Assembly (NCBI GenBank): GCA_006247105.1
Contig: CM016925.1
Span: 2,046,001-2,110,000 of the forward strand
DNA from: Giardia muris
Taxonomy: Eukaryota > Fornicata > Diplomonadida > Hexamitidae
Direction of reading: 5' to 3'
Length of the DNA stretch: 64,000 bases
Of the stretch, positions 1,027 to 59,903 are shown one piece after another. A model generated the notes under the pieces. The model saw only the letters and a program-made list of their open reading frames with translations. It searched no databases and was not told the origin of the DNA. Position numbers and translations under genes: made by a program. Position 1 is the stretch's first letter, and the number at the start of each line of letters is the position of its first letter.

Positions 1027-2622
1027 CTATGAAGAGAGGCCGCTATGGGCGGGAATACTGAGATTCTTCACTACCAACCTGCCATCTTCCCGTGCCAGCA
1101 TTGCCGCAAGTTTCGAGCCTGGAGCCGGCTCGAAGATCTTTGCGAGCACCTCCGTGCCCTCAGCGATGATCTTCTCGTCGAAGACCTGCTGAGCATTGAT
1201 CCTCTCCACTGCAAGCTTGGCATTGTCCGCCGTGTCGAAGAACACGTTGATGTGGAACTTCTTTGGATCGATGTCGTCACGCTTCGGGGCAGATAAGCTC
1301 TGGAAGCCCTCGAGCTTCTGAAGGTACTCGCGATACTCATCCTCGCTCTTTCCGCGGACAAGCCCGTAGATAGATATGCTCTTCTTGGATTTGACATACT
1401 TGTTATTAGAGTTCAACAGTCTCGCCTTCGCCAGATACTTGCGCATGCCATCGCTCAAGCACGACATCGCCTCGATCTCCTTCCCGTACTCCGTCTCGAT
1501 GAGCTTGCTGGAAACTGCCCTGATGATGAGCTTGCGCATCACCGGGCTGCGAGCATCAATGGAACAGTTCATGTTCCCGCTGCCTTTCTGGCGAGGATCC
1601 GCTCTCAGATCCGACTTCTCTTTGTCCTGCTCAGACAGAGGCTCGAAGACGTCATTCTCTGTGAGCTTATTGATCTTGAGATCGGCAGCGGTGAGATTCT
1701 TGAGAGGAATCTCGTTGAGCTTGGACTTGAACTTGGGGTCGAACCTATCGATCTTCCATCCGATGTCCTCAATGCTATTCGATCCGAACTCGGCCTCTGT
1801 GATGGAAAGAACGCTGAGGATGTAGCTTTTGAGGTCTTCTTCCTTGAGGACGATGTTCTTGATCTCCTCAGCGCTGAGCTTGAGGTCTCTGAGATCAGTG
1901 TATGTGAAATTGAGATCTCTGGAGTTAAAGTCCTCGACGTCATAGCAGCTGAGGTCAGAGTCACTGAGCTTGGTGATCCTCTCGAAGATCCAGTCACGGA
2001 CGACAGTGATATTGTCAAAGTGCTCCTCAGGGATGTTCTTAACGAGAGAGCGTCTGTTTTGTTCAATACGGACCCCCATGGGAACAAAGAAGCCGACTTC
2101 GACCTTGTTGCGACCGAGGTACTTCCCGTTTGTTCCCTGGACGGCCCTTTCCGCGTCTTCCTCCTTCTCAAACATGACGTAGCCGCGGTGGTGCTTGTTC
2201 TTGTCTGCGTCCCCATCGAACACCACGGACGTGGAGATGACTTCTCCGAAGCTAGCGTACGCCTCTCTCAGAGTACCACCTGTGATATCTTCCGGGAGGT
2301 TCCTGATCACTATGTCATATTTGCCATTAAGGCGCTGTTTGAAGTTGGGGACAAAGCGGGAGACATGCAGAGGGTGGGGCTTCCCAGAGATCGTGATATT
2401 GACAGAGTCGAGGGCCAAAAGGGCGGTGTTGACCTCATCCTTCGTCTGGAGATAGATCACCATGTAGCGGCCAGTCAAGTGACGAGCCTTTGGGGGGTTC
2501 TTCGAGATCATGATATGGGAGCTCTGATTCAGCACCTGGATATCTACCTGACTTAGGAGAGCGTAGATATCAGACCCAGTGAACTCGGTGGGGATGTTAG
2601 AGATGAGGATCGCGTTCTCCAT
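1027..2622 (-). CDS. RRM protein resembling poly(A)-binding protein
   Basis: A 531-aa protein with RRM 1 at about residues 3-90 (RNP2-like ILISNI), RRM 2 at about 102-180 (RNP2 IVIRNL, RNP1 RGYVMFEK) and an RRM-like fold at about 415-498 (ISIYGL, FHINVFFDT). The join between RRM 1 and RRM 2 (ALDSVNITISGKP, then the IVIRNLPEDI start) and the end of RRM 2 (GKYLGRNKVEVGFF) parallel PABP, where RRM 1 ends in a GKPVRI-type strand followed by NIFIKNL and RRM 2 ends in a KVFVGRF-type strand. The likely role is binding mRNA poly(A) tails or another cytoplasmic mRNA function. There is no obvious C-terminal MLLE domain. The charged middle (about 190-400) is not recognised. The ATG follows a short run of T/A-rich bases. 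Confidence 0.7.
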   Translation of the reverse strand: MENAILISNIPTEFTGSDIYALLSQVDIQVLNQSSHIMISKNPPKARHLTGRYMVIYLQTKDEVNTALLALDSVNITISGKPHPLHVSRFVPNFKQRLNGKYDIVIRNLPEDITGGTLREAYASFGEVISTSVVFDGDADKNKHHRGYVMFEKEEDAERAVQGTNGKYLGRNKVEVGFFVPMGVRIEQNRRSLVKNIPEEHFDNITVVRDWIFERITKLSDSDLSCYDVEDFNSRDLNFTYTDLRDLKLSAEEIKNIVLKEEDLKSYILSVLSITEAEFGSNSIEDIGWKIDRFDPKFKSKLNEIPLKNLTAADLKINKLTENDVFEPLSEQDKEKSDLRADPRQKGSGNMNCSIDARSPVMRKLIIRAVSSKLIETEYGKEIEAMSCLSDGMRKYLAKARLLNSNNKYVKSKKSISIYGLVRGKSEDEYREYLQKLEGFQSLSAPKRDDIDPKKFHINVFFDTADNAKLAVERINAQQVFDEKIIAEGTEVLAKIFEPAPGSKLAAMLAREDGRLVVKNLSIPAHSGLSS

Positions 2623-34885: not shown

Positions 34886-37800
34886 ATGTCGTCTCTTCAT
34901 TTCACCGAACATTCCTCCGAGCTCCCCTCGAAGGGGTGCGTCCAGTCCGCCCAGACCATCAACTATAACCTGGTGAACGTGGGCGGCGCCTCGGTTCTTA
35001 TGAAGGATCAGAAAGGCCATCATTCCAATTCTACCTTTCGTGATAGCCCACCCTCTATAACAGATGAAGGAGGGAGTGCCCACTTCAGCGAGAAGCCGAA
35101 TTCTGGGGAGGAGGCCAAAGAAGATCTCCTGAAGCAGGAAAGGAAACAGTCTACGGCAGACCCGCATGCCCCGAATTCCACTTTGACTTTCACTACGATG
35201 CCCCAGGAGTCTGCAGATGTGAGTAGTGCTCCCGATAAGGATCCAATAGATCCCCCATTGAATGATCCCATTACTTCTCTTTCGACGAACATACCCGAGA
35301 AGTCCTCCATAGAACTTGAGATCCCAAAGAAATTAATAGCAGAGCTAGAAGTAGAACAGAAGCCTAAGGGTCAGGATACCCAATCGCAGTCGAATAACCC
35401 CGCTACCTCGGCGACTCTGATTGAATTCGTTCGACCATCCACCTCGTCGCGCACATCTCTTTCGGGTAGGCGGCACTCGAAAAAATGTTCGGATCTTGAT
35501 CTGCTCAACTCGAAGCTTCAGGATGACACGAATAAGCCAGCACCCGAGGAGATGGGTTGTTGCTTCTCTCATCTCGAGAAGTGTGCCACGAGCGACGCAG
35601 ATGCTGGGGTTCAGTTGTCTGAGGATCAGGAGTCACAGCTCCAAGTACCTGAGTCTGAACCTCAAGATGAGCAGGTCCCGGACTCAAAGGATAGTCAGCT
35701 CTCCGAGAGTACTCTTGTTCCGGATGACTTGATAGCGAGTACTATCCAGCCGTCGATTGAAGTTTCTAACACCAGCGCTCCTGGGAAGTACAATCCCGCA
35801 CCGAATGATGAGTTCACACCCTTCCGTGCCTCACCGAAGGACTTGGACCCCTTCATCAAGTCGATTCTTAGTGCCACAGAAGCAATTGCACCAGAGCGTT
35901 ATAGCTTCCGCTTCGTGAACAACCACGCATCCTACACCCCTGAATATGTGCTCCAGCGTATGGGCGACCCGCTTGCTCACGAGCGCCCTCGAGGAGTCCC
36001 TAAGGTCTCCCACGCGCTCAGCCGCTACTTCAAGCTCGCCGTCGAGTCCAATGTCGAGTCATACATGACAGATGCAAAGGCTGGGGACGTCCCGCAGGTG
36101 GTCAAGTGGATGATCACCGGGAATGATGAGGAGTTCGAACGGAAGTGCCTCCTGAACATCCGGACAATTCTTAACAAGGTCACCCGAGGGAACGAGACCT
36201 CGATTGTTGCGCAGGTTGTGGACTTCCTGCGGGAGACCGAGAGCTACGAGAGCGACTACAACCGCATATTTACGGTTGTCAACGTCTTCGACGAGATAGT
36301 CGATAAGGCATGCATGGAGAACAACTTTGTCGAGTTGTATACGGGGCTCCTCTACACGCTCCTCTTGAGCTTCGGGGGGTCGGAGAAGAATCAGACTCCC
36401 CTCCAGTCAACCTTCGAGAAGTTCCTCATCAGCGTCCGGAGATTCGATAAGGACCGGTTTCCGGAGCTAGACGGCCTACGGAAGGAGATTCCCGAGGCGA
36501 CCGACGGGAAGCTCACGCATAAGAACATCAGCAATTGTATGACCGTCTTCTTCCGACGCTATATTCTGGTCTACCTGGCCGAGGAGATCAAGCACGGGAA
36601 GACGCACAATACAGCATTCCACGTCCAAGAAACAGACAGCGACGATGTTCGGATCACCAAGGAGCAGCAGCGGAGTGTCCATCTGCGAAATAGCGTTAAG
36701 TTCATGGCCTCCGTCTTTAGTCGCGGCCAGTCCCTTTCCAAGGAACTCATTACTGTGACCGCATTCATAACTTGCATCTCTTACCTCCTTCGACGCCAGT
36801 ATGACCGTATGCTCGAAAACGCGTTCCAGAATCCGGAGGAAAGGGCCAGCTACAATACCGCCGTCTCGGAGGCTTTCCACTTGACCAGCAAACAGACTAA
36901 GGATGATGGGAGCCCACAGGTCCTGACGATCACCGCTGATGACATCTATAACGAGACACTCGCATATCAGGAGAAGGTTCGTCCGCTTATCGATCTCCTA
37001 GACCTCAAGTACAAGCCATACTGGTCGACCGAGTACATCGAGCTCGTCATCATCCTTCTTAGGACCGGCGGGTATGCTGCCGATGCTCTGGATCGAGCAA
37101 AGCCTGGATATACTCTCTATTGCTATTGTATGAGACTACTCGAGAAGTTCCACAAGTGTGAGGTCATTGAGGCGCGGCCCTATGTCCAGCTGATGGAGAT
37201 CTTCGAGGATCGAGAGCGAGGTTGGCCTCGTGCACGATCTGAGCTAACCCTCGTCGTCAAGTCGAAGATTCGCCCTGGGCGTCAACCGCGCCCGATTAGG
37301 GACGAGAATATTGACGACGTGAGAGAACTTGGACTCTACTACACGCTAGCTTCGTCGATGGGATACCTCGACTCGGATATCAACAGTGGGCCCAGCGTCA
37401 TCATCACAGATGAGAACATCTCGGAGTGGGAAAAGCGTTTCGTGGAGCTGACGAAGCGTATTGCGGTGCAGAACAAGCTCCCTCTTATGGTCGCGGAGAC
37501 CTTCAAGTTTGCGTCGGAGCAGACGGCATTGCGACAGAGGTTATTCTACAAGCTCTTTGTCCAAGCGCTCGTCGAGGTTTATCCGAAGATATCGAACAAG
37601 GATGCACAGAATGCGATCGTCCACGCACTCTCTGGACTTCTCCTTCAGAAGCACGTGAAGTTCATTAACTTGTTTCCCAACGTTATCCGGCGAGACCAGG
37701 CAGATTCAACGAAGGGGTATGATGGTACCGTGGACGAGAAGCAGTACGAGCTGGCTGTCGCGGTGGTTAGGCATTGCATTGAGCGCGCTCTTGAGAGTGC

Positions 37801-38896
37801 TTTGGAAGAGGACAATTACGCCTTCAGCCCCGATCAAATCGAGACGATCAATGAAGTCTACTCCCCTATCCTTAAGGGCAAGGAGCCGCGGCACCTGACA
37901 AAGGAGCAACAGGCGAAGATCGATAAGATAATGTTTGATATTGACTTCGATTTGTATCGGAAGGTCCAGGAGGCCGGATTGAAGGAGCGGATTCCCGACT
38001 TCGTTGAGACGTGCGTCCTACATGTTGTCGCGGAGACCATCTTCCAGACAAACGATCCCGACCGTATGCTCGATAGGGCTTATCTGGATCAGGCCTGTCG
38101 GGTTAATAACGAGGTCCTTAATCTTTATTGGAAGTCTCGGAATTTGACGAAGCGGCGTACTCCCTACCCTGCTCTTGAGGAGTTTCTTGTCAGTGACCTT
38201 CGCTTCCCCATTACTCTCCGTTATATCATCTTTGCTCGCGATGAGGATAAGTTTGAGAGCATGTCAAATCTCTTCATCCAGGCAAAGATGCCCCATGCGT
38301 TCCTCCGCTACATCATGTACCAGCTCATAAAGGATGCGAATGACCGGCGGGACTATCTTGGCGAGTTCAAGAGGCGTCTTTCTCAATTCCCGCTCTTGAA
38401 GCTGCCGAGCGTTATTATATCCAACCTCCATACGGCATCCCAAAAGATCAGCCAGACATGCGAGCAGCCTCTTTCTCGGCTTCTCGCAGAGGCCACACGG
38501 CAGAAGTATCTGGACTCCGAGTCTGTGGAACAATGGATAATATCCATGGCGAAGCGGCGCTTTGGGCCGAAGCTTGATGCTGCTCGTCTCACTTCTTTGT
38601 ATGATGCCGAGATGAAACGAGACCCCGGGCCCAAGGCATCGACATCGGAATCGCTTTCGATTGTGATTCTCCCTGGGAACCCGGATACTGGTGCCAATAC
38701 TACTGCTGCTACAACCACGACTACCAACGGCAACAGGACTGAGACGCGTACCCCTTCACATGAGAACCACGGGTCTCGACGACCTCGAGGAGGAGGCCCT
38801 AAGGACCGGCCCGAATATCGGCAGTCAGTTAGCGGCACCACCGGCTCTTTAAGCAGCTTCCGAAGGGACTCCGGTAAGTCCTCCGGTCAGAAGTGA
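34886..38896 (+). CDS. MIF4G-domain protein, candidate eIF4G
   Basis: 1336 aa from the ATG at 34886; the frame upstream begins only at a TTG. Residues 1-320 are low-complexity (Ser, Pro, Glu, Gln). Near 350 there is YTPEYVLQRM, close to the YxxxxL-phi eIF4E-binding motif. A MIF4G-type domain follows: helix 404 onward (WMITGNDEEFERKCLLNIRT then ILNKV), a CMENNFVELYTGLLYTLLLS helix near 480 matching the NFxxxYAxxC segment, and SVKFMASVF near 602 matching the IKFIGELF segment. More helical repeats run to about 1280. The tail is Thr/Asn-rich. A UPF2-type protein is the alternative. The stop TGA lies in AGTGAAG. Confidence 0.6.
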   Translation: MSSLHFTEHSSELPSKGCVQSAQTINYNLVNVGGASVLMKDQKGHHSNSTFRDSPPSITDEGGSAHFSEKPNSGEEAKEDLLKQERKQSTADPHAPNSTLTFTTMPQESADVSSAPDKDPIDPPLNDPITSLSTNIPEKSSIELEIPKKLIAELEVEQKPKGQDTQSQSNNPATSATLIEFVRPSTSSRTSLSGRRHSKKCSDLDLLNSKLQDDTNKPAPEEMGCCFSHLEKCATSDADAGVQLSEDQESQLQVPESEPQDEQVPDSKDSQLSESTLVPDDLIASTIQPSIEVSNTSAPGKYNPAPNDEFTPFRASPKDLDPFIKSILSATEAIAPERYSFRFVNNHASYTPEYVLQRMGDPLAHERPRGVPKVSHALSRYFKLAVESNVESYMTDAKAGDVPQVVKWMITGNDEEFERKCLLNIRTILNKVTRGNETSIVAQVVDFLRETESYESDYNRIFTVVNVFDEIVDKACMENNFVELYTGLLYTLLLSFGGSEKNQTPLQSTFEKFLISVRRFDKDRFPELDGLRKEIPEATDGKLTHKNISNCMTVFFRRYILVYLAEEIKHGKTHNTAFHVQETDSDDVRITKEQQRSVHLRNSVKFMASVFSRGQSLSKELITVTAFITCISYLLRRQYDRMLENAFQNPEERASYNTAVSEAFHLTSKQTKDDGSPQVLTITADDIYNETLAYQEKVRPLIDLLDLKYKPYWSTEYIELVIILLRTGGYAADALDRAKPGYTLYCYCMRLLEKFHKCEVIEARPYVQLMEIFEDRERGWPRARSELTLVVKSKIRPGRQPRPIRDENIDDVRELGLYYTLASSMGYLDSDINSGPSVIITDENISEWEKRFVELTKRIAVQNKLPLMVAETFKFASEQTALRQRLFYKLFVQALVEVYPKISNKDAQNAIVHALSGLLLQKHVKFINLFPNVIRRDQADSTKGYDGTVDEKQYELAVAVVRHCIERALESALEEDNYAFSPDQIETINEVYSPILKGKEPRHLTKEQQAKIDKIMFDIDFDLYRKVQEAGLKERIPDFVETCVLHVVAETIFQTNDPDRMLDRAYLDQACRVNNEVLNLYWKSRNLTKRRTPYPALEEFLVSDLRFPITLRYIIFARDEDKFESMSNLFIQAKMPHAFLRYIMYQLIKDANDRRDYLGEFKRRLSQFPLLKLPSVIISNLHTASQKISQTCEQPLSRLLAEATRQKYLDSESVEQWIISMAKRRFGPKLDAARLTSLYDAEMKRDPGPKASTSESLSIVILPGNPDTGANTTAATTTTTNGNRTETRTPSHENHGSRRPRGGGPKDRPEYRQSVSGTTGSLSSFRRDSGKSSGQK

Positions 38897-38904
38897 AGCT
38901 TTAC

Positions 38905-40833
38905 TCATAGGCTGTCAAACGCCTGAGTAAGTTGCTCGTGAAGTTTGTTCAGCTCGGTGACCCCGTACTCGACCCCGTTGGTGTTCGTGTCGATGAACTT
39001 CATGCGATAAAGAGATGTTATGAGCTGCTCGAGGCTACTTTTGATCTCAGCGTACGAGTGGCCTTGCTTGAGCGCGTTGCTGCAGAGCTCGTAGTAGTAG
39101 ACGATGTTCCTCAGCATGTGCGTCGTCTTCTGGAAGGGGCAGAAGCGATCGTAGACCGTATACGAGTTCTGCTGCAGAAAGCCCTCTTGGATGAGGTTGC
39201 AGACGTCAAGGATGAGCTTCTCATTATCATCAAGGCTATCGTACCCGACAAGCTGTGCTGTCTCCTGGATCGTGACTTCTGTCTGAAGAAGTGATCGAGC
39301 CTTCTCCTTATTCGCGAGGAACTGAGGGTCACGGGCCATATACCATGGTGTCAGTGCCTCGACTGCACGGGAGTAGCTAACGAGCCAGTCGACGGACGGG
39401 AAGTGCTTCCTCTTTGCCAGAGTCTTGCTGAGCCCCCAGAAGACTTGAACAATGGCAAGCGTCGAAACGGCGACGGCGTCTGAAAGGTCTCCAGCCGCGG
39501 GGGACACGGCTCCGATGATGGAGACAGACCCAACACGCTGCCCAGGTTCAATATGCTCACCCTCGGCGATTGCTCCAGACGAAGGGTCGTCAATGTTCTC
39601 AGGAGACCACGTTCCATTCGAGTTGCCCAAGCAAATGACACGACCCGCGCGCTCGTAGAAGTGACTCAGCTTCGAGGTCAAGTCTGCAGGGTATCCACCC
39701 TCACCAGGAATTCCACCAAGACGACCGCTGATCTCACGGAGTGCTTCAGCCCACCGAGAGGTGGAATCAGCCAAGAGAGTGACGTTATATCCCTGATCTC
39801 GGAAGAACTCGGAGATGGTAATTCCCGTGTAAATGCTGGCCTCGCGTGCCGCGACCGGCATATTCGACGTGTTGGCGACGAGAACCGTGCGTCCGAAGAT
39901 GTCCGCGGTTGTCGTGACGATCTTCCCATCGACGCGACGCTTCGCCTCGAAGGTCATTTCGGGGAAATCCGTAAGGACTTCTGCCATCTCGTTTCCACGT
40001 TCTCCACAACCGATGTAGACGATGACATCTGTGTTCCCGTACTTGCTGATAGATTGGCTGACGACGGTCTTTCCACAGCCGAAACCGCCAGGGATCGCCG
40101 CCGTCGCCCCAATGGCGAGTGGGAACAGTCCATCGAGGGTTCTCTGGCCAGTGATAAGAGGATTAATGCAAGGAAGCTTCTTCAAGGTTTTCTTCGGGGA
40201 CCTAACCGGATGGTAATGAGCGAGCCCATACTTGTAAGTGGCACCCTCGTACTCGACCTCTAAAATTCTCTCCTCGTCACGGACAGTATATGCATTTGTC
40301 GCGGCTGGAGCGATGTAGACAATCCGCCCACCAGGGACATTCGCCTTCTCTCCGGTCGCCTTGTTGTACCCGTAGGAGGGGAGCATGATGCGACACTCAA
40401 GAAGCTCGTTCTCAGGGACGACGCCAAAGATATCCCCAACCGAGATGAGATCGCCGACCTTAAGGACGGGCTTGAATGTCCACTTCTTATCAAGATCCAG
40501 GGCGGGTGCCGAGACACCACGAGGGATGAAATGAGAATTCGTAAGTGAGGCGATCTTTTCAAGAGGCCTTTGGATTCCATCGTACACGGAGGAGAGGAGT
40601 CCCGGGCCGAGGTGCACGGATAGGAGGCGTCCAGACTTATAGACGACATCGTTGACGGCGAGGCCGGAAGTATCCTCATACACCTGGATGACGGCAAGGT
40701 CCCCCTTGAGCTGGATGATCTCTCCGATGAGACGTGCGTTTCCGACGTAGCAGACCTCGAACATGAAGCAGCCCGTCATGTTCGACGCGGTCACGACGGG
40801 TCCTGCGATCGACTGGATGATCCCGTTACTCAT
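38905..40833 (-). CDS. VMA1: V-type ATPase catalytic subunit A
   Basis: 642 aa, full length. Beta-barrel N-terminus, non-homologous region typical of V-ATPase A (about 100-220), Walker A GGFGCGKTVV at 249-258, YIGCGERGNEMAEVL with the catalytic Glu, then SNMPVAAREASIYTG and YPADLTSKLSHFYERAG of the A-subunit family. It hydrolyses ATP to drive proton pumping into acidic vesicles, the peripheral vacuoles in Giardia. The sequence has no intein and no truncation. It converges with the MIF4G gene (8 bp) and diverges from the WD40 gene (37 bp, gacttttaattgagg). Confidence 0.96.
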   Translation of the reverse strand: MSNGIIQSIAGPVVTASNMTGCFMFEVCYVGNARLIGEIIQLKGDLAVIQVYEDTSGLAVNDVVYKSGRLLSVHLGPGLLSSVYDGIQRPLEKIASLTNSHFIPRGVSAPALDLDKKWTFKPVLKVGDLISVGDIFGVVPENELLECRIMLPSYGYNKATGEKANVPGGRIVYIAPAATNAYTVRDEERILEVEYEGATYKYGLAHYHPVRSPKKTLKKLPCINPLITGQRTLDGLFPLAIGATAAIPGGFGCGKTVVSQSISKYGNTDVIVYIGCGERGNEMAEVLTDFPEMTFEAKRRVDGKIVTTTADIFGRTVLVANTSNMPVAAREASIYTGITISEFFRDQGYNVTLLADSTSRWAEALREISGRLGGIPGEGGYPADLTSKLSHFYERAGRVICLGNSNGTWSPENIDDPSSGAIAEGEHIEPGQRVGSVSIIGAVSPAAGDLSDAVAVSTLAIVQVFWGLSKTLAKRKHFPSVDWLVSYSRAVEALTPWYMARDPQFLANKEKARSLLQTEVTIQETAQLVGYDSLDDNEKLILDVCNLIQEGFLQQNSYTVYDRFCPFQKTTHMLRNIVYYYELCSNALKQGHSYAEIKSSLEQLITSLYRMKFIDTNTNGVEYGVTELNKLHEQLTQAFDSL

Positions 40834-57271: not shown

Positions 57272-59071
57272 GTGGAGGTGAAGAACGCGAGGGCCCTCTC
57301 GTGTACGGAAGGAGCCGGGACGGGGGAGTATACAAGAGCGAGGACGACGTGCACTGTACAGAACTGTCAGGCATGCGTCGATGGTGATGACACGAAGTGC
57401 GAGACGTGCGACACTGACTACCTCAAGGACTCGGACGGCTCCAACTGCTACTCCTGCCCCTCCTGCACCAACTGTGCCACGGCGAGTTCTGACAACACCT
57501 GCGCCTCCTGCAAGACTGGATATGCCACTCCAGCCAATAAGTGCAACACCTGCGCCTCGGGCTACAAACCCGACAGCTCAAGCTCCATAACCCAGTGCTT
57601 CGAGTGCACGAGCTGCGACCACTGCACCGAGGCGAGCCAGGCCAACACCTGCAAGACGTGCGCAACTGGATACACTGTTGGAACCGGGACCTGCGTCTCC
57701 TGCACTGACACCACCAAGTGTTCTAACTGTGTCCAGGCGAGTGCTGAGAACACCTGCTCGGGTTGTGCGGACGAGTACTTCCTCGACACCAGCAACGGGA
57801 ACCAGTGCACGAAGTGCAGCGCGGGTTGTAAGACGTGCTCCGATGCCACTGCCACCACATGCTCCGCCTGCATGCCCGGCTACAACCACGACAGCGGCGC
57901 CAAGACCTGCACTGCCTGTACCGTCACTGGCTGCAAGACCTGCGACACCGATGTCGCCACATGCTCGGAGTGCCTCGACGGCTACCACTCTACCACAGCC
58001 GCCGACTCTTCTTCCGTCACCTGCACGGCCTGCGACCTCCAGAACTGTGGAGCCTGCAACACTGACAAGAGCCAGTGCGAGGCGTGCAAGAGCGGCTTCG
58101 GCCCGACCTACAACTCTTCCCTCTCCATCACGACCTGCAGCAAGTGCCCCGACAACTGCGAGAGCTGCATCGACCTCGGCCTCGGCTCGGGGCTCGTCTG
58201 TGTCGGGTGTCCAACTGGGAAGAACCCGATCAACGGAGAGTGCGTCGATGCGAACACAAAGATCTGCACGGGGTCCTCCGGCTCCTGCACTTCCTGCCTC
58301 AACGGCTTCCTGGCCTATCAGGGCGGATGCTTCTCTCCCCAGAAGGCGGCGGACCTCAAGATCTGCCCTCTGAAGAACCAGCTTCTTGTTGGGGACACGA
58401 CCGTCTGCAAGGAGTGCCCTTCCGGCTTCGTTCCATTTGACGGGACCTGCACGCCCCTGGCCACCGTCAACAAGAAGACGACGAGGGCGGCAGGCGCCAA
58501 CGACATCTGCCTCAACGAGGCCGGGACTGACCCCGTCTCGTCCAGTGCCACGAGGTGCGGGAGCTGCAAGAATCCGACTGGGAGTACTTCCCCCAACTAC
58601 TTCCTCTTCGAGGGCGGCTGCTATCCTGCATCCTCGACCCCCGGGACTTCGGTCGGGAGCCTCCTCTGCTCAGCGGCCACGAATGGAAAGTGCACTACTC
58701 CCGCCACCAACGCCCCCTTCATCCTCGATGCATCCTCAGGGGCCTTCACGGCCTGTCCGAAGGAGTGCGGGGCCTGCACCTCCTCGACCGTCTGCAGCTC
58801 CTGCGCCCTTGGGTACTACAACACGGCTAATGTGGCCTCTCCCTCCGACTGCACGGCCTGCCCCAGTGGGTGCACCTCCTGTCCAAATGGGAAGTGCAAC
58901 CTCTGCTGGGACGGCTCCACTCCCACCAACAATGCCTGCCCCTCTCCCCCCTCCTCCAGCTCCTCGGGGCTCTCTGGGGGTGCCATTGCGGGGATCGTCA
59001 TCGCCGTCCTTCTGGTCCTGGGAGGTCTCGGGGGCTTCCTCGGTTGGTGGTTCGGATGCAGGGGGAAGTGA
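57272..59071 (+). pseudogene. VSP missing start and signal peptide (C-terminal anchor intact)
   Basis: About 599 residues of cysteine-rich VSP: repeated CxxC pairs (CTNC, CKTC, CSAC, CTAC, CNLC), Ser/Thr/Asn-rich spacers, and the VSP C-terminus, with TM GAIAGIVIAVLLVLGGLGGF and tail CRGK. The open frame begins at 57125 and has no ATG and no signal peptide before the Cys-rich part, which starts VKNARALSC. It is therefore a 5'-truncated copy: a donor-type or dead VSP unless a start is supplied by rearrangement. VSPs coat the trophozoite and vary antigenically. The stop is followed by AGTGAAT. Confidence 0.85.
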
Positions 59072-59077
59072 GTGAAT
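59071..59077 (+). promoter_or_regulatory. Poly(A) signal AGTGAAT of the first VSP
   Basis: AGTGAAT matches the Giardia poly(A) consensus AGTRAAY. It shares its A with the VSP stop TGA (59069-59071) and overlaps the ATG (59076) that opens the next VSP-derived frame. So the VSP keeps an intact 3' end. Confidence 0.6.
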
Positions 59078-59903
59078 GGTGAGGGGAGGGAAGAACGCGA
59101 GAGTCCTCTCGTGTACGGAAGGGACGGCATCAGGCAACTGCAAGACGGGGAGCTGCCTCGACCTCGGGACGCTGGGGAAGGTCTGCAAGGAGTGCGCGAC
59201 CACGACCGAGGCCCCGATCGACGGGACGTGCAAGGCCCCAACAGCCAACGATTGTACGAAGGACACAACCACTGGTGTCTGCACGGCATGTACAGGGACC
59301 TACTTCCTCTTCTACGGGGGGTGCTACAACCAGGCAGGAGGCGAGGGTGCTGCTCTCTGCTCGGCGGCATCGAACGGGCAGTGCTCAGAGAGGGCCAGCG
59401 ATGCGACAGGCATCTTCGTGAAGGGGAGCGAGTCCAGCCCCTCAGGCCTCTACACCTGTGATGATAAGACGAACGGGGTTCCCAACTGCAAGACCTGCAC
59501 CTCCCCCGCCACCAACAAGCCCAAGTGCAATGCGTGCAGGACGGGCTTCCTCCCGGACCAGGACAAGTCAGAATGCATCCAGTCCTCCCTCCAGCACTGC
59601 CTCCTGGTGACCGATGCTGACACCTGCGAGGACGGCTGCAAGACGTGCGACTCCAGTGGCTGCTCGGAGTGCCTCGAGGGCCACCACTCTTCCTCCTCTT
59701 CTCCCGTCTCCTGTACGAAGTGCGTCCTCTCCAACTGTGTATCCCGTCCAGACAGCAAGGACGTCTGCACCTCCTGCCTCAACGGCTTCCAGGGGTATAT
59801 GGATGCGATCGGGCCGGCTTATGGGGGCGAGGAGGCCTCAACGAGCACCCCGAGGAGAGCTGTGGGCCTCCCGTCCTCGGGGCAGGTCGTTGGTAGTGGT
59901 TAG
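59076..59903 (+). pseudogene. Truncated second VSP fragment
   Basis: 275 residues starting MVRGGKNARVLSCTEG, that is, the same headless junction as the first VSP 4 bp upstream. Typical VSP body follows (CxxC pairs CTAC, CKTC, CNAC, CSEC, CTSC) up to about CLNGFQGYMD, then the frame runs into unrelated Gly/Ser/Arg-rich sequence and stops. There is no signal peptide, no TM and no CRGK. It is non-functional as a surface protein but could act as a recombination donor. The ATG may be accidental. Confidence 0.75.

Follow-up and report, generated by a model that had tools for sequence, protein, structure and literature searches.

The stretch of Giardia muris DNA analyzed here (hereafter the window) comprises 64,000 nucleotides of contig CM016925.1 (positions 2,046,001 to 2,110,000, forward strand). 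It harbors, at 34886-38896 (+), one uninterrupted open reading frame (ORF) of 1,336 amino acids (aa), which an initial annotation had put forward as a candidate eIF4G in a lineage where this factor is reported absent. The coordinates proved exact and every peptide quoted in that annotation was found in the translation. The ORF exists in two copies, of which this is the longer, and we describe its product as a divergent MIF4G protein that is a candidate for the eIF4G type. All its features lie on the + strand. Residues 1-340 (34886-35905) form a low-complexity, probably disordered N-terminal region, in agreement with the annotation: S, T, P, E, D, K, Q and N make up 64% of it, versus 45% of residues 395-1230, and the GC content at third codon positions is 0.49-0.65 in residues 1-400 versus 0.61-0.82 in residues 401-1200. 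A pattern scan located an eIF4E-binding-like motif, YTPEYVL (YxxxxL-phi with Val for Leu), at residues 350-356 (35933-35953). It is followed by a putative eIF4G-type MIF4G domain (residues 424-782; 36155-37231) and by a C-terminal region without a recognized domain (residues 786-1230; 37241-38575), in which no Pfam family scored above the cut-off and no MA3/W2 similarity rose above shuffles. The low-complexity basic tail, as read from the sequence, contains RPRGGG (residues 1260-1336; 38663-38893), from which we infer a role in RNA binding.

The MIF4G domain, already claimed in the initial annotation, is almost certainly present. A small profile built from eIF4G MIF4G sequences (human eIF4G1, DAP5 and yeast) scored 36.4 bits on the ORF (E 1.8e-13, one sequence searched), versus 8.0 bits for the best of 2,000 shuffles and 0.3 bits for the reversed sequence. 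The match is composed of three segments, residues 424-498 (15.8 bits), 533-643 (11.7 bits) and 713-782 (5.5 bits), which follow one another collinearly along the profile from position 8 to position 241 (of 242), as a complete domain would; hhalign covers the first part only. This best-conserved part, NIRTILNKVT ... FDEIVDKACMENNFVELY (residues 424-498; 36155-36379), makes up most of the stretch that the ORF has in common with a G. muris paralogue, GMRT_10606. The profile was scored on 631 ORFs from ~294 kb of the 9.74 Mb genome, and only the 1,336-aa ORF, its duplicate and GMRT_10606 (which was found through the 1,336-aa ORF) exceeded 3.2 bits, the top score of the 628 background ORFs.

GMRT_10606 is a 1,241-aa ORF on contig C4 (L007:2205-5930, -). 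Besides the duplicate, it was the one match, a weak one (E 0.09), in a genome search with the 1,336-aa ORF. In a single BLASTP comparison the two proteins aligned with 36.6 bits (E 1e-5) and 30% identity over 106 columns, and their common core reads FDEIVxKAxMExxFxxxY. At that core GMRT_10606 has KKAAMEPLFSKVYASL and human eIF4G1 has EKAISEPNFSVAYANM. Two eIF4G profiles gave 14.8 and 18.1 bits on GMRT_10606, with shuffle maxima of 5.5 and 5.7. Homologue searches with this protein, which depend on 5-mers in common and on a fixed span of lengths, returned only itself and one relative, P0004 (79% identical overall, 81% over the searched region). We describe GMRT_10606 as a second diverged eIF4G-type MIF4G candidate.

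Among the MIF4G families compared (eIF4G, CNOT1, CWC22, UPF2 domain 3, CBP80 and NOM1, the last with an unverified query sequence; UPF2 domains 1-2, Paip1, CTIF and MIF4GD stand outside the comparison), eIF4G is clearly the best match of the 1,336-aa ORF, which very probably belongs there rather than in another MIF4G family. With the 1,336-aa ORF, GMRT_10606 and P0004 as three Giardia rows, hhalign gave 93.7% (p 2e-7) against the eIF4G profile, whereas the other families reached at most 5.1% (CNOT1 5.1, CWC22 1.4 with two sequences, NOM1 0.6, UPF2 MIF4G-3 0.3, CBP80 0.3), so that neither UPF2 domain 3 nor CNOT1 nor CBP80 came out as the best match. Because the eIF4G profile holds four sequences and the rival profiles one or two, the fair family comparison is given by the one-sequence values: the same three rows scored 82.6 with eIF4G1, 83.5 with DAP5, 45.9 with eIF4G3 and 13.8 with yeast eIF4G. 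The 1,336-aa ORF alone reached 79.9 with the eIF4G profile, 23.7 with eIF4G1, 5.7 with DAP5, 3.7 with eIF4G3, 3.1 with CBP80, 1.5 with yeast eIF4G and at most 0.6 with the rest. For GMRT_10606 plus P0004 the values were 48.0 (eIF4G), 33.6 (DAP5), 8.1 (eIF4G1), 3.3 (yeast), 3.1 (eIF4G3), 1.0 (CWC22) and at most 0.4 (rest). The built-in hhalign of the search tool put alignment A4 at 90.0% against eIF4G, with p 1.7e-6 and 70 aligned columns of which 27% are identical; full-length GMRT_10606 plus P0004 reached 33.0%. Six G. muris control proteins (HEAT, ARM/KAP, RPN7, NOT1 and two unknown ORFs) stayed at or below 0.4 with the eIF4G profile; their largest value against any single eIF4G sequence was 2.2 (NOT1 with yeast eIF4G), and the positive control, G. 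muris NOT1 against human CNOT1, gave 22.3. In hmmsearch, the single eIF4G1 sequence scored above all shuffles of the ORF in both runs (14.1 versus 11.7; 14.4 versus 8.2).

The eIF4E-binding-like motif noted in the initial annotation is indeed upstream of the MIF4G domain, at a distance of about 67 residues (NIRTILNKV starts at residue 424) and not the 50 first estimated. However, it does not stand out strongly from chance, since 452 of 5,000 shuffles of the 153 residues before the domain also contain a relaxed motif, and YTPEYVL taken alone is weak. The ORF has a single strict YxxxxL-phi, which lies downstream of the domain at residue 1142. In GMRT_10606 the strict form occurs eight times along the whole protein; one of these motifs, YPLTRLL at residue 270, lies at a distance from the core that matches that of the 1,336-aa ORF within about a residue (a match within three residues occurred in 44 of 5,000 shuffles). 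Ahead of its domain, the blocks of GMRT_10606 over residues 161-280 share 90-97% of their residues with P0004. When the protein is divided into 31 blocks of forty residues, identity peaks at 97% in residues 241-280, which include YPLTRLL, and this stretch is therefore under constraint. Three eIF4E-like loci were found in G. muris (L001, L002 and L003). In an alignment with human eIF4E, the best of the three proteins has Phe at the position of W73; as Phe is aromatic, binding by this protein is possible.

Window positions 35720-39643 are duplicated ~227 kb away, at C1:2308983-2312906 (L008; blastn, 3,924 bp, 99.57% identity, 17 base differences and no gaps). Nine of the differences are synonymous and eight, in six codons, are non-synonymous; none lies outside the ORF. 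The segment also holds the 3' part of the neighboring V-type ATPase-like gene. It starts near residue 279, and the duplicate lacks the earlier sequence of the window copy. The database entry GMRT_21336 (978 aa; P0002) is this shorter duplicate, distinct from the window copy: it is listed at 100% identity in the database, yet a few substitutions separate the two. Its annotated start is the codon equivalent to Met359 (35960-35962). No in-frame ATG of the duplicate was found between the preceding stop and Met359, so GMRT_21336 probably lacks the eIF4E-binding-like motif; its translation probably starts at Met359, after the YTPEYVL position. This annotated start is not decisive for the window copy, in which the 358 codons upstream of Met359 stay open and span the interval that follows the adenylate kinase gene, which favors the long form. 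The duplication is a recent segmental event, so that its likeness to DAP5 is convergence at most, and the duplicate may be non-functional.

Taken as a whole, the best explanation, which we hold with modest confidence, is that the product of the 1,336-aa ORF is a scaffold of eIF4G type that has diverged strongly. Its MIF4G domain would hold eIF4A, and the YTPEYVL segment just before it would hold an eIF4E-like protein, one of the three of G. muris. The C-terminus with its basic tail would contact RNA or the 43S complex. The product would in this way bring cap, helicase and ribosome together, as eIF4F does elsewhere. GMRT_10606 would be a second unrecognized type, so that G. muris would have two scaffolds resembling eIF4G, in addition to the duplicate of the 1,336-aa ORF that is shortened at its N-terminus. 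Judged from sequence, a role as a translation scaffold with eIF4A is slightly favored, while binding of eIF4E through YTPEYVL is a tentative proposal. To call the ORF the Giardia eIF4G would be a good hypothesis: the candidacy proposed in the initial annotation stands as far as eIF4G is the best MIF4G family of those compared, by profile, by the 631-ORF background and by hhalign. No G. intestinalis orthologue came up in the homologue searches, which, with the limits given above, is no demonstration of absence.

Several other results weigh against an eIF4G-type scaffold. Pfam did not call MIF4G on the ORF at E<=10, phmmer against the PDB gave no MIF4G match, and these searches, which took in the whole ORF, its pieces and GMRT_10606, gave no related match; weak hits to Bcl-2 chains, a spore germination protein, C962R, CofC and DUF6285 (the Pfam ones below the cut-off) were set aside. 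A search of the G. muris genome with PF02854 (MIF4G) found nothing, this model being silent in the controls too, so that the result is no proof of absence. Two structure predictions were helical but unreliable (pLDDT, the predicted local distance difference test, 46.4 and 42.3), and Foldseek/VIA on these poor models favored no MIF4G family, generic helical-repeat proteins matching about equally. Single eIF4G sequences score weakly on the MIF4G region: DAP5 was above shuffles in one hmmsearch run (7.4 versus 6.1) and below in the other (7.7 versus 12.5), and eIF4G3 and yeast eIF4G were above in neither. GMRT_10606 scored just above shuffles with the CWC22 profile (6.2 versus 5.6; 7.0 versus 5.7). 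Homologue searches with regions of the ORF and its duplicate, under the same shared 5-mer and length-range limits, found only the G. muris duplicate. Homology of the pre-domain segments of the ORF and GMRT_10606 is unsupported (263 of 500 shuffles did at least as well), and the two other eIF4E-like proteins, like the best one with its Phe, do not have Trp at the W73 position. In residues 786-1260, human MA3 and W2 scored below shuffles or not at all, and PF02847 (MA3) had no match in the genome. MA3 and W2 domains belong to animal eIF4G forms and are not universal; yeast eIF4G is not known to have either. The Giardia ribosome is also described as lacking ES6, an eIF4G contact, in a passage of PMC10123126.

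The alternative named in the initial annotation was UPF2, the scaffold of nonsense-mediated mRNA decay with three MIF4G domains. The ORF is likewise large and MIF4G-containing, and mRNA decay dependent on premature termination codons is described for Giardia in PMC3177853. However, MIF4G-3, the one UPF2 domain compared, does not fit (3.8 bits, versus 7.0 for the best shuffle; hhalign 0.2-0.6%), the genome has no PF04050 match (a model silent in the controls too), and the same source reports the UPF1 domain with its UPF2-contact residues in all sequences analyzed except Giardia's, which makes UPF2 very improbable. An origin in NOT1, CWC22, NOM1 or CBP80 is at least as improbable. The fold is common to all of them, CNOT1 also has an EPNFHSLY stretch, and the CWC22 score of GMRT_10606 points the same way, but the ORF itself scored only 0.0-0.9 bits with CWC22 (0.0), CNOT1 and NOM1 (0.3), below shuffles, and 3.9 bits with CBP80, a score without a shuffle background; hhalign with the ORF gave at most 3.1% for the CBP80, CWC22 and NOM1 types. 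Genome searches with PF09088 and with human CWC22 had no match; the CWC22 search had no control and does not demonstrate absence. The NOT1 of G. muris is a separate 3,083-codon ORF (C4:1229072-1233886, L012). Since Not1 (E 1.5e-7, above the cut-off) and the CAF1-binding MIF4G (E 0.0095, below it) both fall in that ORF, the NOT1 role is already taken; PF04054 and PF16415 match there and have no match at E<=10 on the 1,336-aa ORF. A chance MIF4G resemblance of a different alpha-helical repeat protein would agree with the lack of database matches and with the unspecific structural comparison, but the low eIF4G values of the controls, HEAT and ARM proteins included, and of the background ORFs leave it with very little probability.

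An unlikely but more serious alternative is that the protein descends from eIF4G and keeps its MIF4G domain but no longer acts in general initiation, serving instead as a Paip1- or DAP5-like regulator or as an eIF4A/eIF4E-binding repressor of selected mRNAs. The extreme divergence, the two types with a truncated copy, the weak motif and the eIF4E position without Trp would all suit it, as would the leaders of 0-14 nt given for Giardia in PMC3388326 and the reported direct contact of eIF4E2 and eIF4A with components of the pre-initiation complex. Against it, no better candidate for a general eIF4G was seen in the part of the genome scored. Two eIF4Es are described for G. lamblia (passage of PMC3388326), and a passage of PMC5862402 describes them as lacking consensus sites for eIF4G binding.

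Compared with human eIF4G1/eIF4G3 and yeast eIF4G1 (p150), the proposed scaffold has the same order of low-complexity N-terminus, YxxxxL-phi-like motif and MIF4G, and the LNK(V/L)T, KA..E and Y positions are kept. Unlike them, it has no Pfam match, no more than 27% identity even in the 70 columns that align best, insertions inside MIF4G and a long C-terminus unlike MA3/W2. DAP5/eIF4G2, described as not binding eIF4E, resembles GMRT_21336, which probably lacks the motif, but the latter differs in being a recent segmental duplicate; the DAP5 value in hhalign is high with three Giardia rows and low with the ORF alone. GMRT_10606 shares the MIF4G core and motif spacing, the rest being not significantly alignable, and UPF2 is similar only as a large MIF4G scaffold.

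Elsewhere in the window, the neighbor at 1027-2622 (-), labeled PABP-like in the initial annotation, has one RRM only in Pfam at E<=0.001, which does not support that label, and this protein is not evidence for an eIF4G. At 57872-59903 (+), two neighboring ORFs have matches to the variant-specific surface proteins of Giardia.

Giardia commonly serves as the textbook case of a eukaryote that is held to start translation in the absence of eIF4G, a scaffold that helps to bring ribosomes to mRNA. This is stated from 2018 to 2026 in passages of PMC5862402, PMC9014877, PMC10123126 (no eIF4G orthologue and no ES6) and PMC13067578 ("lacks eIF4G", still in 2026), while a passing statement in PMC7139794 is to the contrary, that Giardia forms eIF4F complexes. 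Among the matches listed in the open-licence literature, no title or abstract opening reports a Giardia eIF4G. A literature look for an eIF4A-contact residue likewise gave no result. A broader and rather speculative view is that Giardia never lost eIF4F and has two unrecognized, extremely diverged eIF4G scaffolds, in both of which an eIF4E site precedes the MIF4G core by about 75 residues. In G. muris the segmental duplication would have given rise to a third form that lacks the eIF4E site, parallel to DAP5. The supposed loss may thus be a failure of detection, and this is directly testable. If divergence has merely escaped detection, the view that initiation in Giardia is simplified or primitive would need revision and the question would become one of pull-down with named genes. 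Surveys of presence and absence can fail on fast-evolving parasites.

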